Shown one piece after another: positions 4,135 to 22,397 of a stretch of 23,227 bases of DNA (the first letter of the stretch is position 1; each line of letters opens with the position of its first letter). Position numbers and translations under genes: made by a program. A model generated the notes under the pieces. The model saw only the letters and a list, made by a program, of their open reading frames with translations, was not told the DNA's origin and ran no database searches. Origin of the DNA: Chromera velia (taxonomy: Eukaryota > Sar > Chromeraceae); contig JAHBMJ010002058.1 of assembly GCA_018398765.1 (NCBI GenBank), positions 1 to 23,227 of the forward strand. Direction: 5' to 3'.

Positions 4135-4869
4135 TTAGTGGGGCATGTTTGCACCGTCGATCTCGTCTGCGATGTCTTCCAGCATCGCGTCCTCTGCCTT
4201 GCTGCCTTCGAGGAGAGCAGACTGGGAGTTGTTTAGGCTCCTGTTCCCTCCCTCCAAGTCCCTCACGCTCGGCTGGCCAGCAGACGCTGGCGCCCCCCCT
4301 GCCTGAGCTGCGGCAGCTGCCGCGACGCCCTGAGAGCCCATGGAGCCTGCGAAGGAGACTCGACCTGTGTTGAGTCTTCCCATCTGATGAGTGGGAGAGA
4401 CTCCCTCTGGGCGGGTGGAAGGGGAGATTCCTTCCTCCCCTGCCTTGATTGCCTCCTCTCCTTGTGCTGAGGTGATGGAGCCTCTCTTGACTCTATCGAG
4501 GATTCCGGAGATGGAGAATCTCCCTCCTTGGAGAGAGGCGCGGTTGCCGAGGTTGATAGAGGAGGGGTCGTGCTCGACGTCCAGCTGGTCGGACTCCAGG
4601 GAGTATTGGTGCTTAGGTACGATGGTGACTCTCTTGGAAGAGATGGACGAGTGGGCATGGCTGAGAATCGAACCTCTTGACTGTCTCATGTTCGAAGCTC
4701 TTCTGGAGTAGTTGAAAACAATCGAGTCATGCAGGAGGTCAACGGCATTCTGCATCGCGTTGCGGTCGTGGTCGTTGAGGGTGTACATAAACCCGACGAG
4801 CTTCTCGTGCTGGACCTTCGAGATGACACCGGCAGTCTGGAGGAGGGAGAAGGCCATCCCTCTGATTTT
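4135..4869 (-). other. Exon 26: cytoplasmic tail of the receptor
   Basis: This single 735-nt terminal exon encodes residues 1361-1604 and the TAA. The first 50 residues (KIRGMAFSLLQ ... DRNAMQNAVDLLHD) look amphipathic and helical. The rest is Ser/Arg-rich with basic-residue phosphorylation-like sites (RRAS 1416-1419, KRVT about 1439, KRGS about 1488). Then come a short Ala run (about 1543-1548) and an acidic end (EDAMLEDIADEIDGA). It looks disordered and regulatory. The acceptor is TACAG, preceded by a CT microsatellite in the transcript. Confidence 0.75.
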
Positions 4870-7800
4870 CTGTACAGACACAGACATACAAGAAAGAGAA
4901 AGAGAGAGAGAAAGAGGGAGAGAGATAAGGCCATGTTAAAGTCCTTTGCACCAATCACGGCTCGGGAGCTTTTCTGTTTTTTCAATAGGAGACTTGAGCC
5001 TCTGTTTTCCGTCCGTCTCCTTTTCATTCATTCATTCGTTGCCACATTCCTTCCTTTAGTCCTCCCTCCCTTCCTTCATTGATTCATTGATTCATTGATT
5101 CATTCATTCGTCCGTTCGTTCGTTCGTTCATGTCCTCTTTGCTCATATTGTTTCACACAGAACTCAGTGCATGATACATAAAACACGCACGCACCCGTTT
5201 GCGCACATGCACATGGACACCCACATAGAGAGAAAAGCGCGCTGCAGTACATGCATTGAGGCGGGAGGACTCAACTCACCGCATCTTTTTTCTCCTGGGT
5301 CCTTCTTCCTGGGAAGAGGACAGAACGAGAGATGTAGATGATCAGAAGTCCAGTGAAAGAGAAAGCCCCGATGAGGATCACGAGACTGAAATTGGACAGA
5401 AATTGGGGCTCCGAGCTGGGCGTGTACTGGTCCCCATAGACCTGGAGGGAGAGCGTGTCTACCTCCACGGTGCCTGCAGACAATCCACACGGAACAATTC
5501 ATCCATCAACATGCATCAATGGCTACCCTACAACGAAGGCATGGTCGTTCTTTCCGTACACTTCGAGATAGGACGTCTTCTTGACAAGATCGCACACATT
5601 GCATGTGCCTGCAGGTCTGCCGGTTGATTTGTTTGCTTGCTCAATGTTCACATGTTCTCAATTTCTGCCCGCCTCATTTGGCTATGTCTCATGACTATTC
5701 ATGCAGATCTTTTCTGACTTTTCCTGGTTTCCTCCCTCTGCGTCTTTCTGACCAACCTTGATACAGAGCGCCGACGAGGATGATGCAGATACAGGCGAAG
5801 GAAATGCCCACATCCAGCACGGTGTTGATCTTCGAGTTCCATGGAGCCAGTGCTCCTGTGCCCACCATAATGGCTGCAGCAGAGTAACAAGTTCCTTTGT
5901 GCAAACAAAAAAACTTCGACATACACTGTCGTTCTCAAATGAGGAACTGCGTTACTGCATCATAAAAGGAGATTAAAACGCTCCGTGCTGCCTGCGAGGC
6001 TGTACCACTAATGCATCCTGCATTGACAATCTCCAAAAGGCAAGCTGCGAAACCAAAAATTTCATTCGATTCAAATTCTTTCTGCCGTCTCAGCAACAAC
6101 AAAAGAACGTCTATTTTCATCTAAATAAGTGACTGACAAGAGATGAGGAAGAATTGCCAGCAGATCTGGGTTGCAGGCATATCGGGGAAGATCACTGGAG
6201 GTGCTGCGAGAAGGGCGGAGCGGGTTTGAAGGACGATCCCCCTGCACACTCACACACACACACAAACAATACAACGGTCGAAAACACCTGTCTTTTGCAT
6301 CGCTTTATGCACCGACTTTGCAGCATTGAAACAAGGGAGCAACAGCTGCGGCAATTTTGTTGTCTCTACGGCGGAAAGCAGGGCTGTCTCTATTGGTCTT
6401 TTGCTGAAGGGAGACAGAAAGGACCAGCCCCGTTTCAGGCAGAACGCATCAATCGGATCTGTGATGCATGAGAGATGTCTTTCGACATGTTTCTTGCAAG
6501 CCTGACTGACCAACCGACTGACCAGTAGTAGCGATCCGGTCTGAATCGGAGGAACAGGAACTTCAGGCGCGCGGCCCATCGGGGATCCTGAGAGAGGGCC
6601 GGTCCTCTGATGGTCGCGTAGATGAGAATCGTGTTCACAGCCACGATCCAGATCAGGACTCCAACTATGGCAACAGGCAGAACGCTCATCCATTCTTCCT
6701 GCATCCATGCAGTCATGCCCAGATGCACTCACTCACACACACTCATATTCACCCACACTGCGTGCGTCATTGACTCCACCGAGCCACTCTTTTCGCTACC
6801 CAGAAAGAACCCAAGAAAGGTCTGGGTCTTGCTCTCTATGCTGCGTAAAGAATGACCTCCTCTAGTGCCAAGTGCCGAGTCAGCCATTAGAAGCAAATGG
6901 GTGGATCTGAAGAAGGATTGACGAACCGACAGACTGCCTAACTGCTGACCTGGTAGCATTCGACAGCTGTGAAATCTCGGACTGTGCTGATACCGTTGGG
7001 GTTCCTACGGCAATTGAACAGTGAGAGGGTGACCTTCACAATTCCGATATACAGAATCGAAACACCCATTCCAGACGCGTTGATGCACAGGTCGATGTTC
7101 ATTGGTCCGCTCCTCATGAAGCGCTTCTGCGTGCGTCAAGCAACGAAGAGAGGGATCAGGAGCCACTCAAAAAGATGAAGCGACAAGGAATGAATGGGGC
7201 ACACTTCACAGAGATCACAGAGAATCAGAACACTCAAGCAGCCCTCTACCCCACCCCATGCAGGAATGAACGGAGTGAGTTGGCCGGTGTTCATGAAAAC
7301 TGGGGAGAAAACGAGATTGTGTTTGAAAAAAGTAAAACCGCTAAAAGTTAATTCGCCTTGAGACAGGCAGAACGCATCGACATAGACTGAGCCACAACAA
7401 AGAAAAAAAGCAAATGAATTGGTAACGGCACACACTATGTCCGCCAGACTGACTGACTGACCAATTTGGCCCATGTGATGATATGCCATCGCTTTCTGTT
7501 CTCCTTTGCGTACTTTTCCTCGACCAGATCTTGGTCTGGCTCCACGATGACTCTCTTCAGCAGAGGGTCTGCGAGGACTGTGATGCCGTACCAGAGGAAG
7601 ATGGACACCAGAAGAAGGAAAGGAGTCAGCGTGTTGGTAACCTGCATGAGAGAGAAATCACCAATCGTTCCGTTCAAGATTTTGGAGGCCGATATAACAG
7701 GAGAAGCACCAAGGGTTGCGGAACAAAACATCCTTCCTTGACGTAGAGCAGTAGCAGAGAAGGAAAAATATTGGATCTAGGAGAAGGCAAGGAAGGGACT

Positions 7801-9302
7801 TGGTAGCATTTCCGGTTACATGCATGAGAGACACACACAAAGAGAAAAAGGTCTCTCATCTCACGGACACGCAGACCGACCTGGTGGATCAGCAGACTGC
7901 CTCCACTCACGCAGTTTGCCTTGACTGCTGAGAGATCGAACACCAGAATGTCCATGCCGGAGAAAAGATTGCCCATCACGGGGGGCCAGCTGACAGCCAT
8001 TCCTGCAGGCACATACACGCGCACACGCAGACAGAGGGAGGAGGAAACGATCAGTGGAGGTGAGATCAGCTCTGATTTGTATACTTCTGAAAGACTTAGG
8101 ACGCGCATGAGGATACAGACAACGAAGAGGAGGTAAAACAGCGAAATTCTCTGCTACTTTTTCACAGCGTGAAAAAGATTCGTCCTCTGTCTGTTTGGTT
8201 CCAAGCAGCAGCATTATTTTATCCATACCATTCGGGGAAGGAAAGAGAAGAGCTAGCAATACAGAAAAACACCAAGCCGGAAAACTTGGACTGTCTGGCG
8301 ACTGGCACTACGCTATGCAACACTGACCATCGAAGACTGAAAGTGTCTGTCCGAATGAGAGCAGCAATGAGAGAGCTGTAGAGATCATCATTGTGCTCAG
8401 TGCTTTCTGAGACACCGGAGTTGACGAGGCCTTGTAGAGTGCGGGGCCGACCAAGGCGAAGAGGATGAGGAGGAGGAACACAACACCGACGTTCGTGCCC
8501 GTGTCACAAGGGTCACATTCAACCTGAAGAGAACCCCCCTTGGCGTACCCCGGCTTGCAATCACCACACGCGATTCCCTCTCTGTTTCCCGCACAAGTTC
8601 CTGGGAGGCCACCAGGACACGCGCCCGCCGGAAGGCAGGAGTAGATATCCATCTTTTGAAATGTCGCGTTGTCCGCAGGCGGCACGGCCCAATAACCAAA
8701 CTTCGTCTGCAGTCCGGCAAAGAAAAAAAAGAAGAGAGATGGGGCAGGCCAAGCGAAGGGCAGCGCACCTGCTGAAACATGCGCCGACGCAAACTTGAAG
8801 CGGTTTGCAGAGAAAGGAGAAAAACTGAGCAATGTGCAATGTCTGATGCTTCAAAAGACACTACGGCAACAACAACTGAATGGCGGATAGAGACGGCACG
8901 CATGAGAAGCAGACAACAGGGACGAACCGTAGGAATATCATTTCCTCCCGGGCAGTTGGCTTCAACTGGGCACTCAGTGCAGGTGTTGTTGAGTTTGTTT
9001 AGATAGAAACCCTCGAGGCAAATGCAATCAGATTCGTCGGTGGACGCGATATCGGTGGTGTTGTAGGTGGCAGCACACGAAGTGCAACTGTCTGCAGTTC
9101 CTGTTGCGTTTGCAAATGAGCCTCTCGAACAAGCTGTACAGCTGCCCTCTCCCTCCGCAGAGAAGAATCCTTGGGAGCAGGTAGAGCAGGAATCTCGGGC
9201 GTCGGTGGAAACGGTTCCTGCATACATCAACATGCGGATGAAGGGAGGAGAGGGGGGTGGGGTCACAGGGGTGGAGGGAGGGAGGGAGGGAGGGAGGAAC
9301 GG

Positions 9303-9346
<44 letters not shown>

Positions 9347-12300
9347 CGGAAAGCAGCGTAGGATCTCTTAATCAAGCACAGAGTTTTCTTTGCTTGTCGC
9401 ATCAACCACGTCTTCTTTCGTCTTTCTTCGAAACCCACATGCAATTTCATCAGTCGAGCAAGCATGCCTCTTTAAGAACCTTTTTTCATGTTTATTTCGA
9501 CTGTTGCACATGTCAGGCGCACCTGCTTGACAGGTGTAGCATCCTTGTGCGATGTAGATGTTCACGGTACAATTTTCGAAGTGTGTGGAAGCGGTCGACC
9601 CCTCCGAGGACAGCAGGACAGTGTACCCACTCCTGCAGTCAGGAAGGAAAGCAGGAAGCCATCGATCGAGGTGGTCAGGAACGATCGATTCATGAATATA
9701 AGTCACCACAGAAGATTCCATTTGAAAGGAGTTCACATCTCTTCTTTTGTGCATTCGCGACTTTTTATGTTTGACCGTTAATTCTGAGGCTTCTCTTTCC
9801 CTAAGTCCAGTGACGGCTTATGAAGAAAGAGAGACGGGCCGGCCAAGTGGCCAAGCAAGCAAGGAGGAAGGGAAGCAGGCAGCTAGACAGACCTGAGGCA
9901 GGCGATCCCTCCGTCTGCCACTGCTTGAAGCTTCGAGTAGTCGTTCGTGGAGGCAGTGCCTGTGTACCCCCAAAGGGTGTATTCGTACCTGAAGCGAAGA
10001 AATCAAATAGGAGAGAAACACGCGATCTTCCAATTTACCCTCATGTCTGGAATCACATTGAGTAACGTGGCAGGACCTCGGTAGGACAAAATGTTGCTGA
10101 TTCACTCATTAACTGAATGTCTCCCCACAAAGGCACTTACTTACAGGGTAAAATCAAGCCGCGTATCGATAGCAATATTCGGATTTGTTTGCGGATATAC
10201 GTCACAAAAAACTCTACAACAGGTGATTGCAGATACTTGTGTTGCGAATCAAAAAGGATTAGGACGGAAAAGAGGACCGCAAAACACCGTGAGAAGCCAA
10301 AATGCTTTTAGGAATACACGAAAGAGCACACGATGTTTCGGCACCCTCGCTCTTCGTCTGCCGATGGAGTTGCTCAGATAGAGTCCAAGTATGTGTGGGA
10401 AGGGGGGGGGGAAGTTCACTGACTGACGAGTCACTCCGGTATTGTCCTACTCCGCAAATATCGCAGCTCTGCATCATCGGAGAATAAAGACGAAGACATG
10501 GGAGAAAAGGGCGACAAGGATGGAAAAAAGAAGGAACAAGGAAACATAAACACGTTGGAATGAGGCAGGAAGGACCGCAACCGTGACGTGCATGCATTTG
10601 CATGCATCACTCAGGTGACGCCAAAACACAAAAATATAGAGAGGCATACACACCAGGCACGACCAAAAACAATCGCGGCAGACAAAACGGGGGAAGATGC
10701 GAAGATGCAATATCGCAACATTTCTTTTGATCGCTAATCCTCGAAGGATCGATGGATGGATCAACCCACGACCGCAAAAAAACCAACCACCGAATCGACA
10801 AAGAGACTGACCAACCAAGAACCCGACCGATCGACCGACCGTAGATCCACTGGAATTGGTCCACCTTCCGGTTTCGCAGCCTTCGCAGACGTACGTGTCG
10901 TACAGCGTTTTGTAGACACCGTATGTACCCGGAGGGCACTCAGCGCAGGAGTTGTTCGACTGGATAACGCTCTGTCCTGTAGAGCAAACAGGTGCTCTGC
11001 CGGTGGGCGTCTCCGAGAACCCAGGTTCAGAGGTTGTGTTTTTGTACCTGCAGAAAGCGCATGCTCAGGTGATGGTCGAATACATCAAATCGGTTCAACG
11101 GAGCTCTCTCTGTCTTCCTCTGACCATTTCTTCTCATGAGCCTTTCTCTCTTTTCTCCCTTTCGCCTTCTTTCTTTCCCTCTTTGACCATTTCTTTCGTC
11201 TTTCATTTTCTCTTTCTTCTTTCTCCTCTCGGACAAACATTCCGCCGGCAACAGTCAATCAGCTTACATACATACAGAAGTTCAGGCCAGGTACGTGAGC
11301 AGATGAACTGACCAAGAGAAGCCTGTGCTGCCGAGTGTCCAGGTAGTCGATGCTCTGTCGTATGATGCCAGGGACGACTGGAGGACCAGGTCCGAGTTGT
11401 GTCTCCTTAGATAATAGTTTCGTGTGATGTACCCGTTTTCGATGTTGATGGTTGTGGAGACGCCGTCAAATGGGAGAAGGGCGAAGTTAGCGGGGGCGGC
11501 GAGGGCCAGCGCGACCTGGATGCATGTGGTACAAATAAATAAATAAATATCGGTCAGCGACAAACGTGAAAATAGACAAAAACGGAAGACGCTCTAGAGG
11601 ATGAAGGCTGTGTCACTTCATCCAAACACCACTTAATTTTAGAACGCATGTTTCTGTTTGGAATGCAGGCATGTCTTGTCAGCAGTTTGGCATTGGTAAG
11701 TTGTTTTTCTTCCTGAGTGAATAAGAAGAGGCGGCTGTCTAAAGACCAAACCCAAAGCACTGATAGAAAACAAGCAAAAAAGTCCACCACTCAGCTCAGC
11801 CGACCGACCGACCGACTAACCTGTCTCGGGGTGATTGTGAAGACGTTTCCGTTGTCTGTGACGGCCTCGCTGATTGCTGCCGCGATGAGCAGAACTGCGT
11901 CATAGGTCATGCGGGCGCTCTCGCAGAGGGAGTGGTAGACTGCCGTACCTTCGTAGTCGCAGATGTGGGTTTGCTGCAATTGTTTTTTTTTGCAATTAAG
12001 GGACAAAGGAGACAGAGAGACAAGTCAGGGAGGCAGAACGGAAGTCAGGAAGGAAGGGATCGAGCTGAATCAATGTGCTCAAACAGCGTGGCAGGATATT
12101 TTCACTCTCGTTGTTCCAGCTTGAGGGTAAGCAGAAAAGAAGGGAAGAGCAGACCCCCCCCCTTGGTGAAAAAAGCGCTTGAGATTGCTGAAGAGAGGAT
12201 GAGACGGGAGGATTCAGCCTGACCAAAAGGCGAAATGATGGGTTTGGAGGGAGGAACATCCGGATCCTTGCAGAGAATTCAACAAAACAATTAAGGAAAG

Positions 12301-13101
12301 AGAGCTTGACTTGAGTGTCTGACCAGATAGTCCGCTGCTGTTGAGGAGAGGGCCGCTTGTCTTGACGAGACGAACAGACCGTAACCATTTGTTTGACTCA
12401 GATCTGCAGAAGGCAGCGGAGAGGGTGTAAAGCAGAAACCAAACCAGAAAGGTGCGCACACGGCTGTGAACCATAGGTATTCCCCAACGTATTGGAGGTC
12501 CATGGTGGTAGCTGTTGTCAGACGCGTCTGCCAGAAGTTGTGAGGGACTGAAGTAGCCCCATTCGCTTTTGAGGCCATCCATGTCGGCACGTTGGCTGCC
12601 CATTCAGTGTTGAACATGGAAGCCAGAGGTCCATTGATGTCCCCGACTACACCGAATTCTCCGTTCACGTATTCGTATCCGTTGTGTATGGGCGTTCCGA
12701 ATTCGTAGTTGGCGATACGTGTCAGGTCCACATCATTGAACGAGGCTCGAGCCCCGGCAAACCAAATCCATCCATCGTTCTTCATGTTCAGCAATTCAGC
12801 TTGCAGATGGAGTGTACTTTTTGGTTTTCCACTTCTGCATGCATGCAGATAATTCAAATGAGGTTAATCAAGATTGCACAAGAGCATTGAAGGCAACCAG
12901 CGCGGACAGTCGGAAGAAGGAACGTAACGTGATTGCATGCAGCCAGAGAGGAACTTGAACCCCTGCAGTGCTTGAATGCTCTCCGTTTTTTTCTTTTTCT
13001 ACACACTGTAAGTTTCTTTCTTTTCCCACAGAAGCGCATACATACATACATACATACATACATACAGACAGACAGACAGACAGACAATATCGTCTTTTCT
13101 T

Positions 13102-13136
<35 letters not shown>

Positions 13137-16100
13137 TATATGTTTCTTCTTCTCCCTTCTTTTCTTCATGAACACAACAGACAAACAGACAGACAGACAG
13201 AAAGACAGGCAGACAGACAGACAGACAGACTATATGGTTTCTTTGCCCCCTTTTCTTCATGAACACAACAGACAAAAAGAAAGAGAACAAAAGACAGAGA
13301 GGCAGATAGAGTCTTAGACGGATCAGCAGACGGGCAGGCAGATTGACTATGCAGGGATGGACGGGACAGAGAAAAGGAAAAAACGAACTGCGTGTACCAA
13401 ACATTTGACTGGCTGGACACTTCTGCGTAGACGCAGAATTATCAAACGAAGAAGCATCGGATTTTTATGGACTGAGTGACTGAGTGACTGACCCAACACA
13501 GGTGAAGATGACACGCAGTTCGTATGGAGAGTCGAGAATCGTCTGAAGGGCTGCTTTTGCAGAAGCGTCTTTGATGATGAAATCTTCGGCAGATGTAGGG
13601 TCTCTCTCAACTGGAATCACCGCCGATGTGTATGTGATCGTCTTGCCTGCAGCTGCTGCCTGTGTCTCCATTGTGCTGATGAAATTCTGGAGCTCTTGTA
13701 CACTGCATGAGGAAAGAAAGCAGGGGAAGTGAGAGAGGGGGGAAGGAAACACTCGTGCAGGTAAAACTGCCATGCACACAGAAAAGCGTTATGTGTCAAC
13801 GTCAACTGATTGCTGGTCCGATGCCAGAGAGAGACTAAAACATTCTGCCGTTCTTTTGCTTCGCTTTCGATTTTAATGACTCGTGCAATTGCTTCTTTTG
13901 TGCTCCGACGAAGAAACAATGCATGGGATCCCCTCCGGAGTTGTCCAGCAAGAATGAAACCTAGAGCAGAGACAATCACACGAAACCCACTCTTCTAGAC
14001 TTTTCATGCGTATGTGTAGCTTTTCCTCTTGCCACTTACTCCAAGGCCGTGCCGATGGCCCCAAAGCGGGTGTAGCCCAGGGAGACCATCAGCTTTGCCA
14101 CCGCCGTGTTCTGGACCGAAAAGTCCGGAGTGTTCTGCATCATTGGGAGGGAGTAGAAGACGGGAGGGAAGAGGAGCGTTGAAAGTTTGATTCAGAAGAG
14201 ACACGCGAAAGGATTGCGTGCGTGCGTGCGTGCGTGCGTGCAATCTTGCACACGAGTAAGGCCAGAGAGCGAAAAAGGTCGGTATCTCATCGGTTGGACC
14301 CCCGTATTGAATGGGAGTGCTCACAAGACTGGACACATACAAGAGAGAGAGAGAGAGAGAGAGCGTGCGAGCACACACTGCAGCTGACCCGAATGTACAT
14401 TGGGTAGCTGTTGATCGCTGCAGTGTAGTAGGTGTCGAAGTCCGGGTACGTCGGGATGATTGGCATCATCAGGTTCTGGGCCACTGCATGCAGTGGGAGG
14501 GAGGGAGGGAGGGAGGGGCAGCACAGAAACCGACAGATGCAGAAGCGATCAATGGGAAAGCGGAGAATTAATGGAGTGGCCAGAGAACAGGCAGGTACTT
14601 CTTTCATTTGTCTGTGCTGCATTGCCCGGAAGGATCTGTCGACCTTTGCGCAATGGTACGGAAGTCAGGAGGTAGGAGTACCGCGAGTGTGTCTCTCAAC
14701 CAGTGTTTCTCTAAATGCACACTGTATCTATCAAGGTTTGAATTGTACCGACAGAGAAAAGAGTCTCCAGCCCGCTCTGCTGACCGACCGACCGACCGAT
14801 CGACCGACTGACTGACTGACTGAGTGACTGACTGACTGACCGACCGGCCGACCGGCCGACCGACTGACTGACTGACTGTTACTGACTGACCGGCCGGCTG
14901 GCCGGCTGGCTGACAGACTGACGGACTGACTCACTGACTGACTGACTGTCGATTGCTTTCTTCTCTGGCCGGTAGACTGTCCCTGCGCCGACAATCCCGA
15001 AGAGATAGTCTGGTGCAGAGATTGTCGAGGCCGTGTTGTAGCCACCCCAGTTTGTGTAGCTGTCCGTAATTAACTTCCAAGACTCCCACTGAAGATATGG
15101 AGGGAGGGAGAAGGAGAAGGAGGGAGGGAGAAAGGGAGGGCACTCGTCTAGTCAGGAGTACTGGAGGTAGAAGAAGATCGGATAGATCATGACTTCTCTT
15201 GTTGACTTCCCAGCCGTTTGCTGATGGGGTGGCATTTCTTTTTCTTTCGCGTCTTTCTGTTTTAAAAGAGCTCGCCATCCGTTCGGAAGTCTTTCTTTAT
15301 TTCCAGTCTTGTGCTACGTGTTGCTGTTGATTCTCCTCTCCCATGACCCTCAACGGACCCACCTGTGCGGCTCTGAGGATTTGCATCGACTCCGTGCCGA
15401 ACCACATTGTGTCTGCAGAGAGGGGGAATGGCGATGGCGAGTGTGCATGCCAGCACTCTGACAAAGCTGCAGGGGCGCGTCGGTTGAATCTGGAAGATAC
15501 CCAATGCTTCTAGAAAGGAAGGGACAGAAAAGTGCAGGAAGGTGAAGGAACCAGAAAAGAGCCAGAATTTCAAGTGGCAGAGTAGGAGAGCAGGAAAGAA
15601 AGAGATAAGGCAGATCGGATAGACTGATGGGAAGAAACTCACAAATGTGGTGGATGCTGATGTCGAAGGTCTGAAAGCTTCCCAGCACAGGCACGTTGGC
15701 AACGGAATTAGCGTTGATGTGCATTGCGGCCAGCTCCGCAGCCTGCAACAGGTAGAAGAGAATCATGCTCCATTCATCGTTTCGAGAGCGTCATTTGGGA
15801 CACGCCATCTCATCAACAAAGAGCGCTGCGTGCACCTTGCTCCGATGCTGAAAAGACACTACAAAAGGTGGAAGAAGTGACCGATGGTATTGTTAATTTT
15901 CCATGCACGCTCAGACTGACGAATGCGAGGTTGCCGCTTTCTCGAGGGTTCCAGGTGGCTTCTGCACGTCGGAGCAGGGAGGAAAGGAAGCAGAGATAAA
16001 AGCGCACAACGCTTAGTGAAGGCTCAGGGTAGATCGTTGCTACCTACCAACGACACCAATTCGGAAGAGGGTGGTTGAAGCCGTGTACGCGGTGGACGCG

Positions 16101-16264
16101 ACTGCGGTGATGACACTCGCATCTGCGACGTTTGCCGTGTAGGCAGTGTTCAGGTTTTCGTTCCAGTCGTACCAATCTCCTGCGTATGTCGGCCAAGAGC
16201 TCACCAGGTAAGACTGGAGGCTCAAACATACCGCCACGAGGGCTGAGTACACGGGCGTTCGCAT
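4135..16264 (-). CDS. Large multi-exon membrane receptor: Venus-flytrap ectodomain, Cys-rich repeats, about 8 TM segments
   Basis: I rebuilt the gene by hand. Exons, 5' to 3' on the minus strand: 16264-16048, 15961-15921, 15742-15643, 15412-15363, 15088-14947, 14483-14389, 14134-14040, 13702-13493, 12834-12324, 11973-11821, 11515-11313, 11047-10840, 10468-10428, 10213-10145, 9988-9893, 9632-9523, 9217-8928, 8706-8328, 8002-7881, 7641-7462, 7126-6950, 6698-6523, 6241-6138, 5873-5757, 5473-5280, 4869-4135. All 25 introns are GT-AG and all phases agree, which gives 1604 residues. Layout: signal peptide 1 to about 22; type-I periplasmic-binding fold about 66-605; Cys-rich region about 612-947; membrane segments about 950-1345; cytoplasmic tail 1361-1604. 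The likely role is a plasma-membrane sensor that binds a small ligand outside the cell and couples it through the membrane module; this is inferred from architecture. The start could also be the in-frame ATG at 16342, but the downstream ATG places a signal peptide at the N-terminus. Ligand and output are unknown. Confidence 0.85.
4870..5279 (-). other. Intron 25 with CT tract and ATTC/GTTC tetranucleotide arrays
   Basis: The 410-nt intron has a GTGAGT donor and a TACAG acceptor. Plus-strand GA repeats at 4891-4926 read as a CT tract just upstream of the acceptor. At 5077-5130, ATTG/ATTC and GTTC tetranucleotides form a compound array. No hidden exon is seen. Confidence 0.7.
5077..5130. repeat. 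Compound ATTG/ATTC/GTTC tetranucleotide array
   Basis: GATTCATT octamers pass into ATTC and then GTTC tetramers within intron 25, showing stepwise mutation of one tetranucleotide register. Confidence 0.8.
7127..7461 (-). other. Intron 20, donor followed by GTCA repeats
   Basis: The 335-nt intron begins GTCAGTCAGTCAGTC, a short in-phase extension of the donor word (7447-7461), and ends CACGCAG. No other feature is seen inside it. Confidence 0.7.
8003..8327 (-). other. Intron 18
   Basis: A 325-nt intron with a GTCAGT donor and a CCTGCAG acceptor. It carries no repeat array or hidden exon that I can support. Confidence 0.65.
9218..9522 (-). other. Intron 16 with triple compound microsatellite
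   Basis: The donor is GTGCGC, one of the weakest in the gene, and the acceptor is ATGCAG. A GGGA/TA/GA compound repeat occupies 9272-9346. In the transcript it reads CT repeat, TA repeat, then CCCT repeat toward the acceptor, so it may serve as a pyrimidine tract. Confidence 0.7.
9272..9346. repeat. Compound (GGGA)n-(TA)n-(GA)n microsatellite
   Basis: Three adjacent arrays: GGGA tetramers (about 9272-9298), TA dinucleotides (9303-9319) and GA dinucleotides (9319-9346). It lies inside intron 16 of the receptor gene. Confidence 0.9.
10145..10468 (-). other. Exons 13 and 14: two very short exons (41 and 69 nt)
   Basis: Exon 13 (10468-10428) encodes SCDICGVGQYRSDS. Exon 14 (10213-10145) encodes VFCDVYPQTNPNIAIDTR and a few more residues, and lies in a part of the intron region where no long open frame shows it. 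The evidence is phase: 13 ends in phase 2 (GACTC then GTCAGT), 14 starts after TTGTAG in phase 2 and ends at a strong GTAAGT donor in phase 2, which exon 15 requires. Removing exon 14 also keeps the frame, because 69 is divisible by 3, so it could be a skipped cassette exon. Confidence 0.65.
10469..10839 (-). other. Intron 12 with GTCGGTCG donor extension
   Basis: The 371-nt intron begins GTCGGTCGATCGGTCGGGTT, a donor embedded in GTCG repeats, and ends GATGATGCAG. A TGCATGCAnnTGCATGCA-like palindrome lies at about 10589-10606. No hidden exon is supported. Confidence 0.65.
11516..11820 (-). other. Intron 10 with GTTAGTCGGTCGGTCG donor array
   Basis: The 305-nt intron begins with GTTAGT and runs directly into GTCGGTCGGTCGG (11798-11820). 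The acceptor is ATCCAG, one of six that are not TGCAG. A short AAAT/TTTA tetramer run lies at about 11534-11549. Confidence 0.65.
11974..12323 (-). other. Intron 9
   Basis: A 350-nt intron with a GTCAGA donor and a TTGCAATTGCAG acceptor preceded by a run of T. Nothing else is recognised. Confidence 0.65.
12835..13492 (-). other. Intron 8, longest intron, microsatellite-rich
   Basis: The 658-nt intron begins GTCAGTCACTCAGTCACTCAG (a donor array) and ends CTGCATGCATGCAG. The middle is filled with CATA and CAGA tetranucleotide arrays and a duplicated spacer (separate entry). Confidence 0.7.
13037..13275. repeat. (CATA)n/(CAGA)n arrays with a duplicated ~94-bp higher-order unit
   Basis: CATA tetramers (about 13037-13065) pass into CAGA tetramers (to 13086), with further CAGA blocks at 13104-13136 and 13180-13230. 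Between blocks, a spacer beginning GACTATATG and containing TTTTCTTCATGAACACAACA occurs twice (starts about 13134 and 13228). Spacer and array were therefore duplicated together. Confidence 0.85.
13703..14039 (-). other. Intron 7
   Basis: A 337-nt intron with a GTAAGT donor and a CTCATGCAG acceptor. A minus-strand open frame crosses it (RRSTKEAIARVIKIE...), but exon 7 and exon 8 join directly in phase to give GTALDVQELQ, so no internal exon is needed. Confidence 0.6.
14216..14241. repeat. (CGTG)n tetranucleotide repeat
   Basis: Six perfect GTGC units lie in intron 6. Confidence 0.85.
14484..14946 (-). other. Intron 5 with a ~170-bp donor-derived array
   Basis: The 463-nt intron starts with GTCAGTCAGTCAGT and continues for about 170 nt as a GTCA/GTCG/GGCC tetranucleotide array. 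It ends with CCCT repeats (plus-strand GGGA, 14494-14517) directly upstream of ACTGCATGCAG. Both splice-signal ends are therefore microsatellites. Confidence 0.75.
14776..14949. repeat. GACT/GACC/GGCC tetranucleotide array at a splice donor
   Basis: On the plus strand, GACC units, then GACT units, GGCCGACC units, GACT again and GGCCGGCT units. On the gene strand every GACT is GTCA, so the array contains many GTCAGT hexamers identical to the commonest donor of this gene. It overlaps the last bases of exon 5 (14947-14949). Confidence 0.9.
15098..15140. repeat. GGGA/GGAGAA purine repeat at acceptor of exon 5
   Basis: AGGGAGGGAGAAGGAGAAGG words on the plus strand are CCCT/TTCTCC in the transcript and lie about 10 nt upstream of the TCTTCAG acceptor at 15088/15089. 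Confidence 0.75.
16199..16264 (-). other. Signal peptide of the receptor
   Basis: Residues 1 to about 22 start MRTPVYSALVAVCLSL. There is a basic residue at position 2, a hydrophobic core of Ala/Val/Leu, then polar residues before SSWPTYAGDW. This fits secretion of the following ligand-binding domain. Translation from the ATG at 16342 would add 26 residues with a second Cys/Phe-rich hydrophobic stretch, which looks less like a classical leader. The exact cleavage site is not determined. Confidence 0.65.
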
Positions 16265-17564: not shown

Positions 17565-18223
17565 GTGTACTGCACAAAGATGAGCATAAACATAGTCAAA
17601 AGACATTGTTCGCTGATAATCATCATAAACAAATCTCTTAGAGATTCATCTTATGTAAAAGATTCGGCAAAAAGAGCGTATTCCAGCGACTGCGTTAGAA
17701 AACCATCAGCGTTCACAAATGCTGTACGTCAATTCACTAAACCGGGAGGAGGCTCCCTTCCTGCAGTCAAACACACAAAATGAACCACAAGGATTTTAGG
17801 AGACTTCGGTTCACCTGGTAGCTTCATGCAGCCTTATTCAACAAGGTAAAAGCGCAACCATGCAACGAGTACCAACGATACCCAACAGTGGTAAGCAGGG
17901 ACACCGGACGTGAAACACCAGAAGACGAAACAATCGGAAAACAAAACCGTTCGAGTTGCGGGGCCGCAGGTAGCAGTAGTTTTGTCATGACGCGATCATA
18001 TCAGAAGGCACTAAGACTTCGAAATAAAGGGAGAGAGGGAGGCAGGATGGGAGGAAGAAGGGGGGGGAAACGTTTTTGGTTTGTTGTTTTTTGGCAGTTG
18101 GGGAGGTCATTTCGCTGGGTGGGTGCATGATGTTTACTTGATGCTATGGATTAGAAAGTGAGTCACATGGTACAAGGGATCTCATAGGGATCTCCATGAA
18201 TGCTCGTCAGAAAGGAAAGAAGG

Positions 18224-21201: not shown

Positions 21202-21863
21202 CAGAGCGACTGACTGTTTTGCGTGTCCTCGCAAGTGGACAGTGCCCTTCTCATCGTGGAAAGTCGGGATAGTCCAACCGAAACGCGAGACTCATCAAGA
21301 GTGCATAGGCTTCTCACCTGCAAAAAGGGACTACACACAGAGGCAAAAGGAGGAGACAAAACAAGAAGCCTACCCAAACACTGGCCTAGACACTGGCCTT
21401 GGGGTCTCCAGGGAGGCCGGGGGACACACCTACGCATGACTAACAGCGGCTCAAAACAAAAACAAACGGCAAGAGGACACTCGCTTAAAGGAGGATCTTT
21501 CACTTGCTTACCAGAGTTGGAACAGAAGTCGTGTATATAGATGGGCAGGAAAGTCGGACAGAGAACTATATACATTTAAAGACTATGTATAGGTGCATGC
21601 GGCAATCATTTGAGGAGAGGCAGTCAGAGAAGTCCCTGTGGTGTTCTTTCTGACCTCCCCAAGCTCGTGACAAATACGCAGAGACCCACTGATTGTTTTG
21701 TGTATCCTCGCAAGCAGACAGCGCCCTTCCCATCGTGGAAGGTCGGGACAGTCCAATCGAAACGCGAGACTCATCAAGAGTGCATAGACTTCTCACCTGC
21801 AAAAAGGGACTGACACACAGAGGCAAAAGGAGGAGACAAAATAAGAGGCTCACCCAAACACTG

Positions 21864-21938
21864 GCTTTGGGGTCTCCAGGGAGGCCGGGGGACACACGCT
21901 TGGAGGGTCTTGCTCCCGGCCTCCCCCCGCCCCAAAGC
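21864..21938. repeat. Strong inverted repeat (hairpin) across the copy B / extra-segment junction
   Basis: The left arm is GCTTTGGGG (21864-21872), 7 nt, then GGAGGCCGGG (21880-21889). The right arm is CCCGGCCTCC (21915-21924), 5 nt, then CCCCAAAGC (21930-21938). That gives 19 perfect pairs in two blocks around a small internal loop, with a 25-nt apical loop. The left arm is duplicated sequence; the right arm lies in the extra segment. Confidence 0.85.
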
Positions 21939-22138
21939 TTTCCCCCCTGCGCTTTCATCCCCGCCCAGCCATGCACATGCACGGACAAAAAGGAGAAGAT
22001 GGTTTGAATAAGAGAGACCAAAGTCTCGCTCGCTTGCTCGCTGTATGCACACTCGGTGGGGGTTCTCTTGGAAAAAGCAGGGCCCGCACAACGCAATTCC
22101 AAGTCGATTTGAGTTCACAAATCTACTTATCCACCCCA
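21898..22138. mobile_element. ~241-bp segment present only in copy B (insertion, or deletion from copy A)
   Basis: Copy A reads GACACACCTACGC where copy B reads GACACAC, then about 241 bases, then CCCACCTACGC. A CAC triplet flanks both ends, compatible with a 3-bp target duplication or with microhomology-mediated deletion in copy A. The segment has no recognised coding sequence, tRNA-like boxes or poly-A tail. Its left end forms a hairpin with the flank. Class unknown. Confidence 0.45.
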
Positions 22139-22397
22139 CCTACGCATGACTAACAGCGGCCCAAAACAAAAACAAATGGCAAGAGGACACTCGCTTAAAG
22201 GAGGGTCTTTCACTTGCTTACCAGAGTTGGAACGGAAGTCATGTATATAGACGGGCAGGAAAGCCAGACCGAGAACTATATACATCTAAAGGCTATGTAT
22301 AGGTGCATGCGGCAATCATTTAAGGAGAGACAGTCAGAGAAGTCCCTGTGGTGTTCTTTCTGACCTCTTGTGCGACCCAAGCTCGTGACAAATACGC

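Follow-up and report, generated by a model that had tools for sequence, protein, structure and literature searches.

The window analysed here, 23,227 bases that make up the entire contig C2050 of the Chromera velia genome, carries on its minus strand one gene, running from 16264 to 4135, whose predicted product joins an extracellular Venus-flytrap domain through a cysteine-rich stalk to a membrane base of nine helices. The predicted anatomy (secreted binding domain, cysteine-rich stalk, multi-helix base and charged, serine-rich tail) is that of a receptor, and the single gene, its order of domains and a family of paralogs are established at the level of sequence. Other flytrap chassis include class C G-protein-coupled receptors (GPCRs), ionotropic glutamate receptors, receptor guanylyl cyclases and Venus kinase receptors. 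The best explanation of the window protein, to which we assign a probability of roughly 0.5, is a receptor whose flytrap controls a TRP/CRMP-like base, probably via Ca2+ or regulated secretion. More tentatively, the protein and its relatives may represent a separate eukaryotic flytrap chassis, with a nine-helix TRP/CRMP-like base, swapped type I and type II binding domains and a chemically gated Ca2+ entry or exocytosis trigger as output, and the contact-triggered secretion switch of apicomplexans may derive from such a chemosensor of free-living relatives. In the open-access titles and beginnings of abstracts that were searched, a scope outside which most subscription papers fall, no flytrap joined to this base is described.

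Gene model

An initial exon chain, found by dynamic programming with scoring of splice sites and codons, comprised 23 exons and 1472 amino acids; exons 10, 14, 15 and 24 were added to it by hand, and the ends of exons 9, 13 and 23 were shifted. The completed model (4135..16264, minus strand; ATG at 16264, TAA at 4137-4135) has 27 exons and encodes 1564 amino acids, with GT-AG borders at all 26 introns. Exons 1 to 9 lie at 16264-16048, 15961-15921, 15742-15643, 15412-15363, 15088-14947, 14483-14389, 14134-14040, 13702-13493 and 12834-12524; exons 10 to 18 at 12403-12324, 11973-11821, 11515-11313, 11047-10840, 10468-10428, 10213-10145, 9988-9893, 9632-9523 and 9217-8928; and exons 19 to 27 at 8706-8328, 8002-7881, 7641-7462, 7126-6950, 6698-6523, 6241-6138, 5873-5757, 5473-5280 and 4869-4135. 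The score of the 23-exon chain is 215. Twenty dinucleotide shuffles did not exceed 28.5 (and 74 amino acids), the opposite strand gave 32.6 and four shorter runs on the flanks gave 25.5 at most, the codon table being seeded in all runs, shuffles included, from open frames of the gene's own strand. A single chain thus accounts for the span, and a division into two or more genes was rejected. The GC content at third codon positions of the exons is 0.652, as compared with an intron GC content of 0.479. All 26 donors have G at position +5 and 21 of the 26 acceptors read GCAG, features that lend no independent support because the chain scoring rewarded both.

The earlier note on this DNA had described 26 phase-consistent exons encoding 1604 residues, without stating the strand, and had proposed translation of the exons as a check. 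Translation yields a valid single chain far above the shuffle control, and reading through intron 9 (12523-12404, 120 nt, in frame) recovers exactly 26 exons and 1604 amino acids. The flytrap domain scores 39.4 bits with intron 9 spliced and 37.9 bits without, so that the 27-exon, 1564-residue variant, the numbering of which is used here, fits marginally better; the gain is slight, and the donor of intron 9 is the weakest in the gene. A retrained chain differs from the model at three places, namely at intron 9, in dropping exon 15 (10213-10145) and in ending the gene with an exon 27 that starts at 4836 instead of 4869. Introns 5 and 8 contain long tetranucleotide arrays (CTGA, ACAG/CATA) at 14780-14948 and 13037-13230; the first of them, CTGA, adjoins a GTCAGT donor, and GTCAGT is the donor at 9 of the 26 introns.

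Domain architecture

A hydrophobic N-terminus, read by hydropathy as a signal peptide (approximately residues 1-23; 16196..16264, minus strand, as for all features below), precedes a type I periplasmic-binding or Venus-flytrap domain encoded by exons 1-12 (approximately residues 24-565; 11313..16195). Residues 183-488 match Pfam ANF_receptor (PF01094; E 7.4e-9, 35.5 bits against a cut-off of 25.4); the residues before 183 lie outside the match, and the first strands of the type I fold can be recognized there by eye. The stalk encoded by exons 13-18 (residues 566-837; 8928..11047) is rich in cysteine, with 30 cysteines in residues 566-905 versus 4 in residues 1-565, and contains Ephrin_rec_like repeats (PF07699; E 2.3e-6, above cut-off, best stretch 757-805). 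GCC2_GCC3, the name used in the earlier note, we take to be an earlier name of this family. Between stalk and membrane lies a conserved cysteine motif (residues 838-907; 8497..8706), which is defined by the paralog alignment, has a sub-threshold DUF7630 match and follows the pattern GYW..P...C...CPGG..C..R..I.C..C..GY...C..C.

The membrane module (5315..8496) is delimited by hydropathy, charge pattern, conservation among paralogs and the PF06011 affinity of the family. Its predicted transmembrane (TM) segments are TM1 908-930, TM2 944-966, TM3 1006-1028, TM4 1079-1101, TM5 1130-1152, TM6 1181-1201, TM7 1205-1226, TM8 1235-1255 and TM9 1285-1308. TM6 is weak by hydropathy yet lies within a block conserved among the paralogs. 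With segment borders chosen by us, the four inside loops hold 20 Lys/Arg and the five outside stretches 6, and the best reading is nine helices with the N-terminus outside and the C-terminus inside. The predicted cytosolic tail (residues 1309-1564; 4138..5314) contains 28 K+R, 28 D+E and 33 S, and its first part aligns with a helical-looking stretch of the paralogs. The signal peptide, type I fold, GCC2/GCC3-type stalk and basic, serine-rich tail named in the earlier note are therefore all present, and the profile searches which it proposed placed both the flytrap and the Ephrin_rec_like repeats above cut-off; of its estimate of about eight TM segments, the multi-helix membrane part stands, whereas hydropathy and charge give a count of nine.

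ANF_receptor and Ephrin_rec_like are the only families listed for the full-length protein in a Pfam scan with E up to 10, in which HMMER omits most matches weaker than 0.1; the matches include no kinase, cyclase or ligand-gated channel domain. Ionotropic glutamate receptors likewise join a flytrap to a different effector, as do Venus kinase receptors according to the available part of the source. Assignment to either of them was rejected, the two listed families being neither channel nor kinase. A PDB sequence search with residues 1-1396 matched the cysteine-rich stalk only, and further PDB searches gave chance-level matches.

A paralog family with exchanged sensor domains

The genome searched comprises 177.8 Mb in 4040 contigs, and paralogs are named here by contig; the boundaries of their chains are rough, and some chains include intron remnants. 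A search with the membrane module gave 21 matches, 9 of them the window itself, with paralog identities of 22-45%; the remaining matches lie on C3454, C3717, C1343, C1680, C3730, C465, C2156 and C2884. With ANF_receptor as the query, 9 matches distributed over 7 contigs were obtained (C2089, C2966, C3630, C3693, C1343, C3717 and C973), a low count because the window itself, its exons being short, gave no match. Including the window, 12 loci carry all or part of the module. Seven of these encode a type I flytrap on the strand of the module, two a type II-like domain and one (C2884) Sushi and HYR domains; the other two are C465 and C3730, of which the latter (G000:C3730:35342-35536) is a module fragment interrupted by two in-frame stops, next to a gene that by eye is malic-enzyme-like.

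Flytrap and module lie in one chain at 5 of the 12 loci: the window, C3693, C3717 (ANF_receptor 7.3e-5), C2089 and C1680 (ANF_receptor 0.0097, sub-threshold). C3693 repeats the order of flytrap, Ephrin_rec_like and nine helices in one chain, with ANF_receptor (3.2e-9) and Ephrin_rec_like (9.6e-14) above cut-off and the full module recognized by profile (E 3.7e-95 and 9.1e-36; none in reversed frames); in addition, JAMP matches its module below threshold (1.2e-4). This few-intron locus (G000:C3693:50501-58170) is the cleanest second copy of the arrangement. At C2089 (ANF_receptor 3.2e-11; module partly read) leucine-rich-repeat-like sequence, recognized by eye, replaces the cysteine stalk; the locus (G000:C2089:144001-153100) combines it with a flytrap, a more distant nine-helix module and long inserts. 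On C1343 (ANF_receptor 1.3e-33) and C973 (ANF_receptor 6.7e-4; module 3e-6, approximately 5.5 kb downstream), flytrap and module share contig and strand and are not in one chain. The flytraps of the window and C1343 resemble each other weakly (3.9e-4 over 64 residues), and their link rests on both matching PF01094. Taken together, the predicted chains demonstrate a paralog family which keeps the membrane base while exchanging the sensor domain.

The modules of the window and C3454 are 33-34% identical and group together with support of 94/97, just below the mark for strong support. Intron sites at alignment columns 1 and 362 coincide between them in phase as well as position; two further introns lie at or beside the same column and differ in phase, and the other introns differ. 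This nearest relative of the window module seems to bear the other type of binding domain: the N-terminal domain of C3454 is similar to the binding proteins for glycine betaine (OpuAC 0.0044, below cut-off), and the N-terminal part of C2156, which has no Pfam match of its own, is related to it (1.4e-4 over 87 residues). A two-row profile of C3454 and C2156 finds the betaine/proline binding proteins 7yle (0.013, near the start) and 4xz6 (0.035, at the end) in the PDB, with an unrelated LysM receptor kinase (9h24, 0.029) ranking between them at another position. When the genome was searched exon by exon for OpuAC, no match came up, and C3454 itself was missed. Given the sub-threshold OpuAC score, the rank of 9h24 and the empty genome search, a type II binding domain at C3454 and C2156 is predicted with moderate confidence; possibly these proteins are osmolyte sensors in a eukaryote.

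Fungal relatives in the Flc family were first named flavin carriers. Flc1 has been linked to flavin transport, as the accessible text has it (PMC9600462), and the family seems to employ both periplasmic types of binding domain, so the protein might be conceived as a transporter or permease in which the flytrap is the substrate receptor, as in bacterial ABC systems. We consider this improbable: a long cysteine-rich stalk lies between binding domain and membrane, and C2884 has Sushi and HYR domains instead, an arrangement at odds with substrate delivery. The use of type I and type II sensors on this base appears to be new; the principle is not, since fungal family 3 GPCRs have binding domains of both types (ANF and BMP; OpuAC and SBP_bac_1), as stated in the available part of PMC3251606.

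Affinities of the membrane base

PF06011, the TRP-like Pfam family, matches six of the seven modules compared, three of them below 0.01 (C2156, C1343 and C3693). Within a six-module alignment it is found in five modules at E up to 1, with a best value of 3.2e-5, and in none of the six modules when reversed; in a separate scan the paralog values are 0.00044 for C2156, 0.0014 for C1343, 0.024 for C3717 and 0.038 for C1680, and PF06011 is also the best match (6.6e-5) of the C3693 module, which stands outside that alignment. Wherever positions are shown, the matches are collinear and fall at profile positions 207-402 of 426, that is, in the second half. Fission yeast Pkd2 itself bears PF06011. According to the available parts of two sources, the members of PF06011 include fungal Flc proteins (PMC9600462), Pkd2 is grouped with Flc1-3 in one family in a review table, and it passes Ca2+ under membrane stretch in reconstituted vesicles (PMC12028594). 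The Chromera family resembles these proteins remotely, within the second half of the profile and in the six matching modules, and differs in the ectodomain: the ML-like TRP_N domain (PF14558) is not listed by Pfam for the window protein, which has a flytrap and a cysteine-rich region instead.

The alveolate CRMPs, to judge by excerpts of PMC9815656 and PMC9670195, have Ephrin-receptor-like repeats and, in Toxoplasma and Plasmodium, nine TM segments with the N-terminus outside and a cytosolic C-terminus; Toxoplasma requires them to secrete its rhoptries, and Tetrahymena needs two of them to discharge its mucocysts. The window protein likewise has Ephrin-type cysteine repeats in a large ectodomain (PF07699, above cut-off); its hydropathy and charge are best read as nine segments, the weak TM6 included, with the N-terminus outside and the C-terminus inside. 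Kringle, MAR, lectin and EGF-type domains, among others, are the CRMP ectodomains named in the excerpts, and flytrap or type II binding domains are not among them. The genome gave 11 alveolin-type matches (a control matched in Caulobacter too) and 14 CPW_WPC matches on 3 contigs (controls 0/14), the latter an apicomplexan-wide family with homologs in chromerids as far as the available text of PMC4501334 describes it. The nine predicted helices, the Ephrin-type repeats and a genome that appears to be alveolate also point to the CRMPs, which act as exocytosis triggers, and these alveolate proteins are probably the closest described kind.

Several results weigh against a TRP/CRMP-like base under flytrap control. 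The window module matches PF06011 at chance level (E 0.14 or 0.44; 11.3 of the 28.5 bits required), the full-length window protein lacks a PF06011 match at E up to 10, and the C3454 module has none at E up to 0.1. Reversed decoys match other families by chance down to 0.023, so that the matches of C3717, C1680 and the window (0.14) mean little alone, and the matching modules, being related, are not independent tests. Among solved membrane structures none matches the family profile, and no pore or gate was identified. On two of the seven contigs with ANF_receptor matches, C2966 (read from 2081 to the contig end, without a module) and C3630 (covered over 3.3 kb), the stretch read does not join the match to a module. 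The CRMPs were compared by description, and those of Tetrahymena are predicted with five TM segments instead of nine in the excerpts of PMC9815656 and PMC9670195.

Membership of the window protein alone in PF06011 was accordingly rejected. Paralog scores reach at most 22.4 bits where given, and the 3.2e-5 match (probably C2156) corresponds to about 23 bits by scaling; with a cut-off of 28.5, no match for which bits are given supports formal membership. A remote relationship of the module family to PF06011 is nevertheless supported below formal thresholds. The TRP-like membrane module proposed in the earlier note is thus partly supported, as a remote affinity of the family (six of seven modules, no reversed one) and not for the window sequence by itself.

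The same observations could be explained by a CRMP-like protein that responds to a ligand without being a channel, with the base serving as a scaffold or complex partner that licenses extrusome-type secretion while the flytrap reports a chemical cue. Besides the repeats, the nine predicted helices with their orientation and the alveolin-type and CPW_WPC domains, this explanation can draw on the statements in the available text of PMC9815656 that Chromera velia has "many diverse CRMPs" and that CRMPA and CRMPB are predicted to pair through their TM parts. As the PF06011 affinity points at least equally to fungal Flc/Pkd2, and the likeness to CRMPs is one of description, we regard it as rather doubtful.

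Relation to class C GPCRs

The window protein shares with class C GPCRs an ANF_receptor flytrap followed by a cysteine-rich linker, and differs from them in the nine predicted helices, the Ephrin_rec_like-type stalk and the lack of 7tm_3, which is not listed for the window protein (E up to 10) or for the seven modules (E up to 1). In the genome, 7tm_3 was not found at E up to 0.001, a search in which control genomes gave no match either. NCD3G, the nine-cysteine domain, is not listed by Pfam for the window protein and appears weakly in the stalks of C3454 (4e-6), C3693 (1.9e-5) and C1680 (0.0041), in all cases below cut-off. The G-alpha family PF00503 has six genome matches, all of them within the GTPase stretch at profile positions 159-262 of 333. 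The best of them passes the cut-off together with its neighbours, and the best two, which are those inspected, resemble the small GTPases Arl and Sar1 by eye; an exon-by-exon search of this kind can miss a true G-alpha.

Class C membership was therefore rejected, and the claim of the earlier note that the membrane part lacks class C hallmarks is borne out. Its idea of an independent solution to small-molecule sensing applies to the membrane base only, the flytrap belonging to a Pfam family found in class C GPCRs. That the protein is a highly diverged class C GPCR, its membrane part still coupled to G proteins, would agree with the common flytrap family, with the faint NCD3G signals and with the description of TgCRMPa and PfCRMP1 as GPCR-like by PANTHER (available part of PMC9670195), and is very improbable given the missing 7tm_3, the helix count and the restricted PF00503 matches, the best two of them Arl/Sar1-like. 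Since there is no 7tm_3 and the PF00503 matches are confined to the GTPase stretch, coupling to G proteins is unlikely; control of a Ca2+ path or of a secretion trigger by ligand closure is therefore favoured.

Proposed mechanism

Under the preferred reading of a flytrap receptor on a TRP/CRMP-like base, the gene product would be a plasma-membrane chemoreceptor. Its extracellular flytrap would bind a small molecule and close, and the cysteine-rich stalk would transmit the movement to the nine-helix base, which may have a distant kinship with the Flc/Pkd2 "TRP" family of fungi (PF06011) and probably has one with alveolate CRMPs as well. The base, we infer, either conducts or controls Ca2+, raising its cytosolic level, or triggers regulated secretion, with the basic, serine-rich tail as the presumptive coupling part and an output that would resemble CRMP-triggered exocytosis.

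The ligands of CRMP ectodomains are named as an open question in the available part of PMC9815656; if these flytrap proteins share the CRMP base, their ligands would be accessible to standard binding assays, and swapping the sensors would allow experiments on the gating of the base. Protists would then have combined the flytrap logic of taste and glutamate receptors with at least one further membrane machine, which suggests that cells have another means of tasting their surroundings.

Other observations in the window and genome

Relations to PHROG and NCBIfam families were rejected, the matches being at chance level. Ten longer open frames of the flanks gave no Pfam match above cut-off, and no tRNA or Rfam RNA was found in the searches for them. 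An open frame at 17822-18127 (plus strand) has a sub-threshold Myb-like match (0.0031). At 21203-22367 there are diverged direct duplications (231 nt at 94% and 130 nt at 90%, with spacings of 710 and 479) in which no gene was recognized. Elsewhere in the genome, three MACPF-domain matches, one with an in-frame TGA, lie within approximately 3.1 kb (G000:C334:37672-40755).

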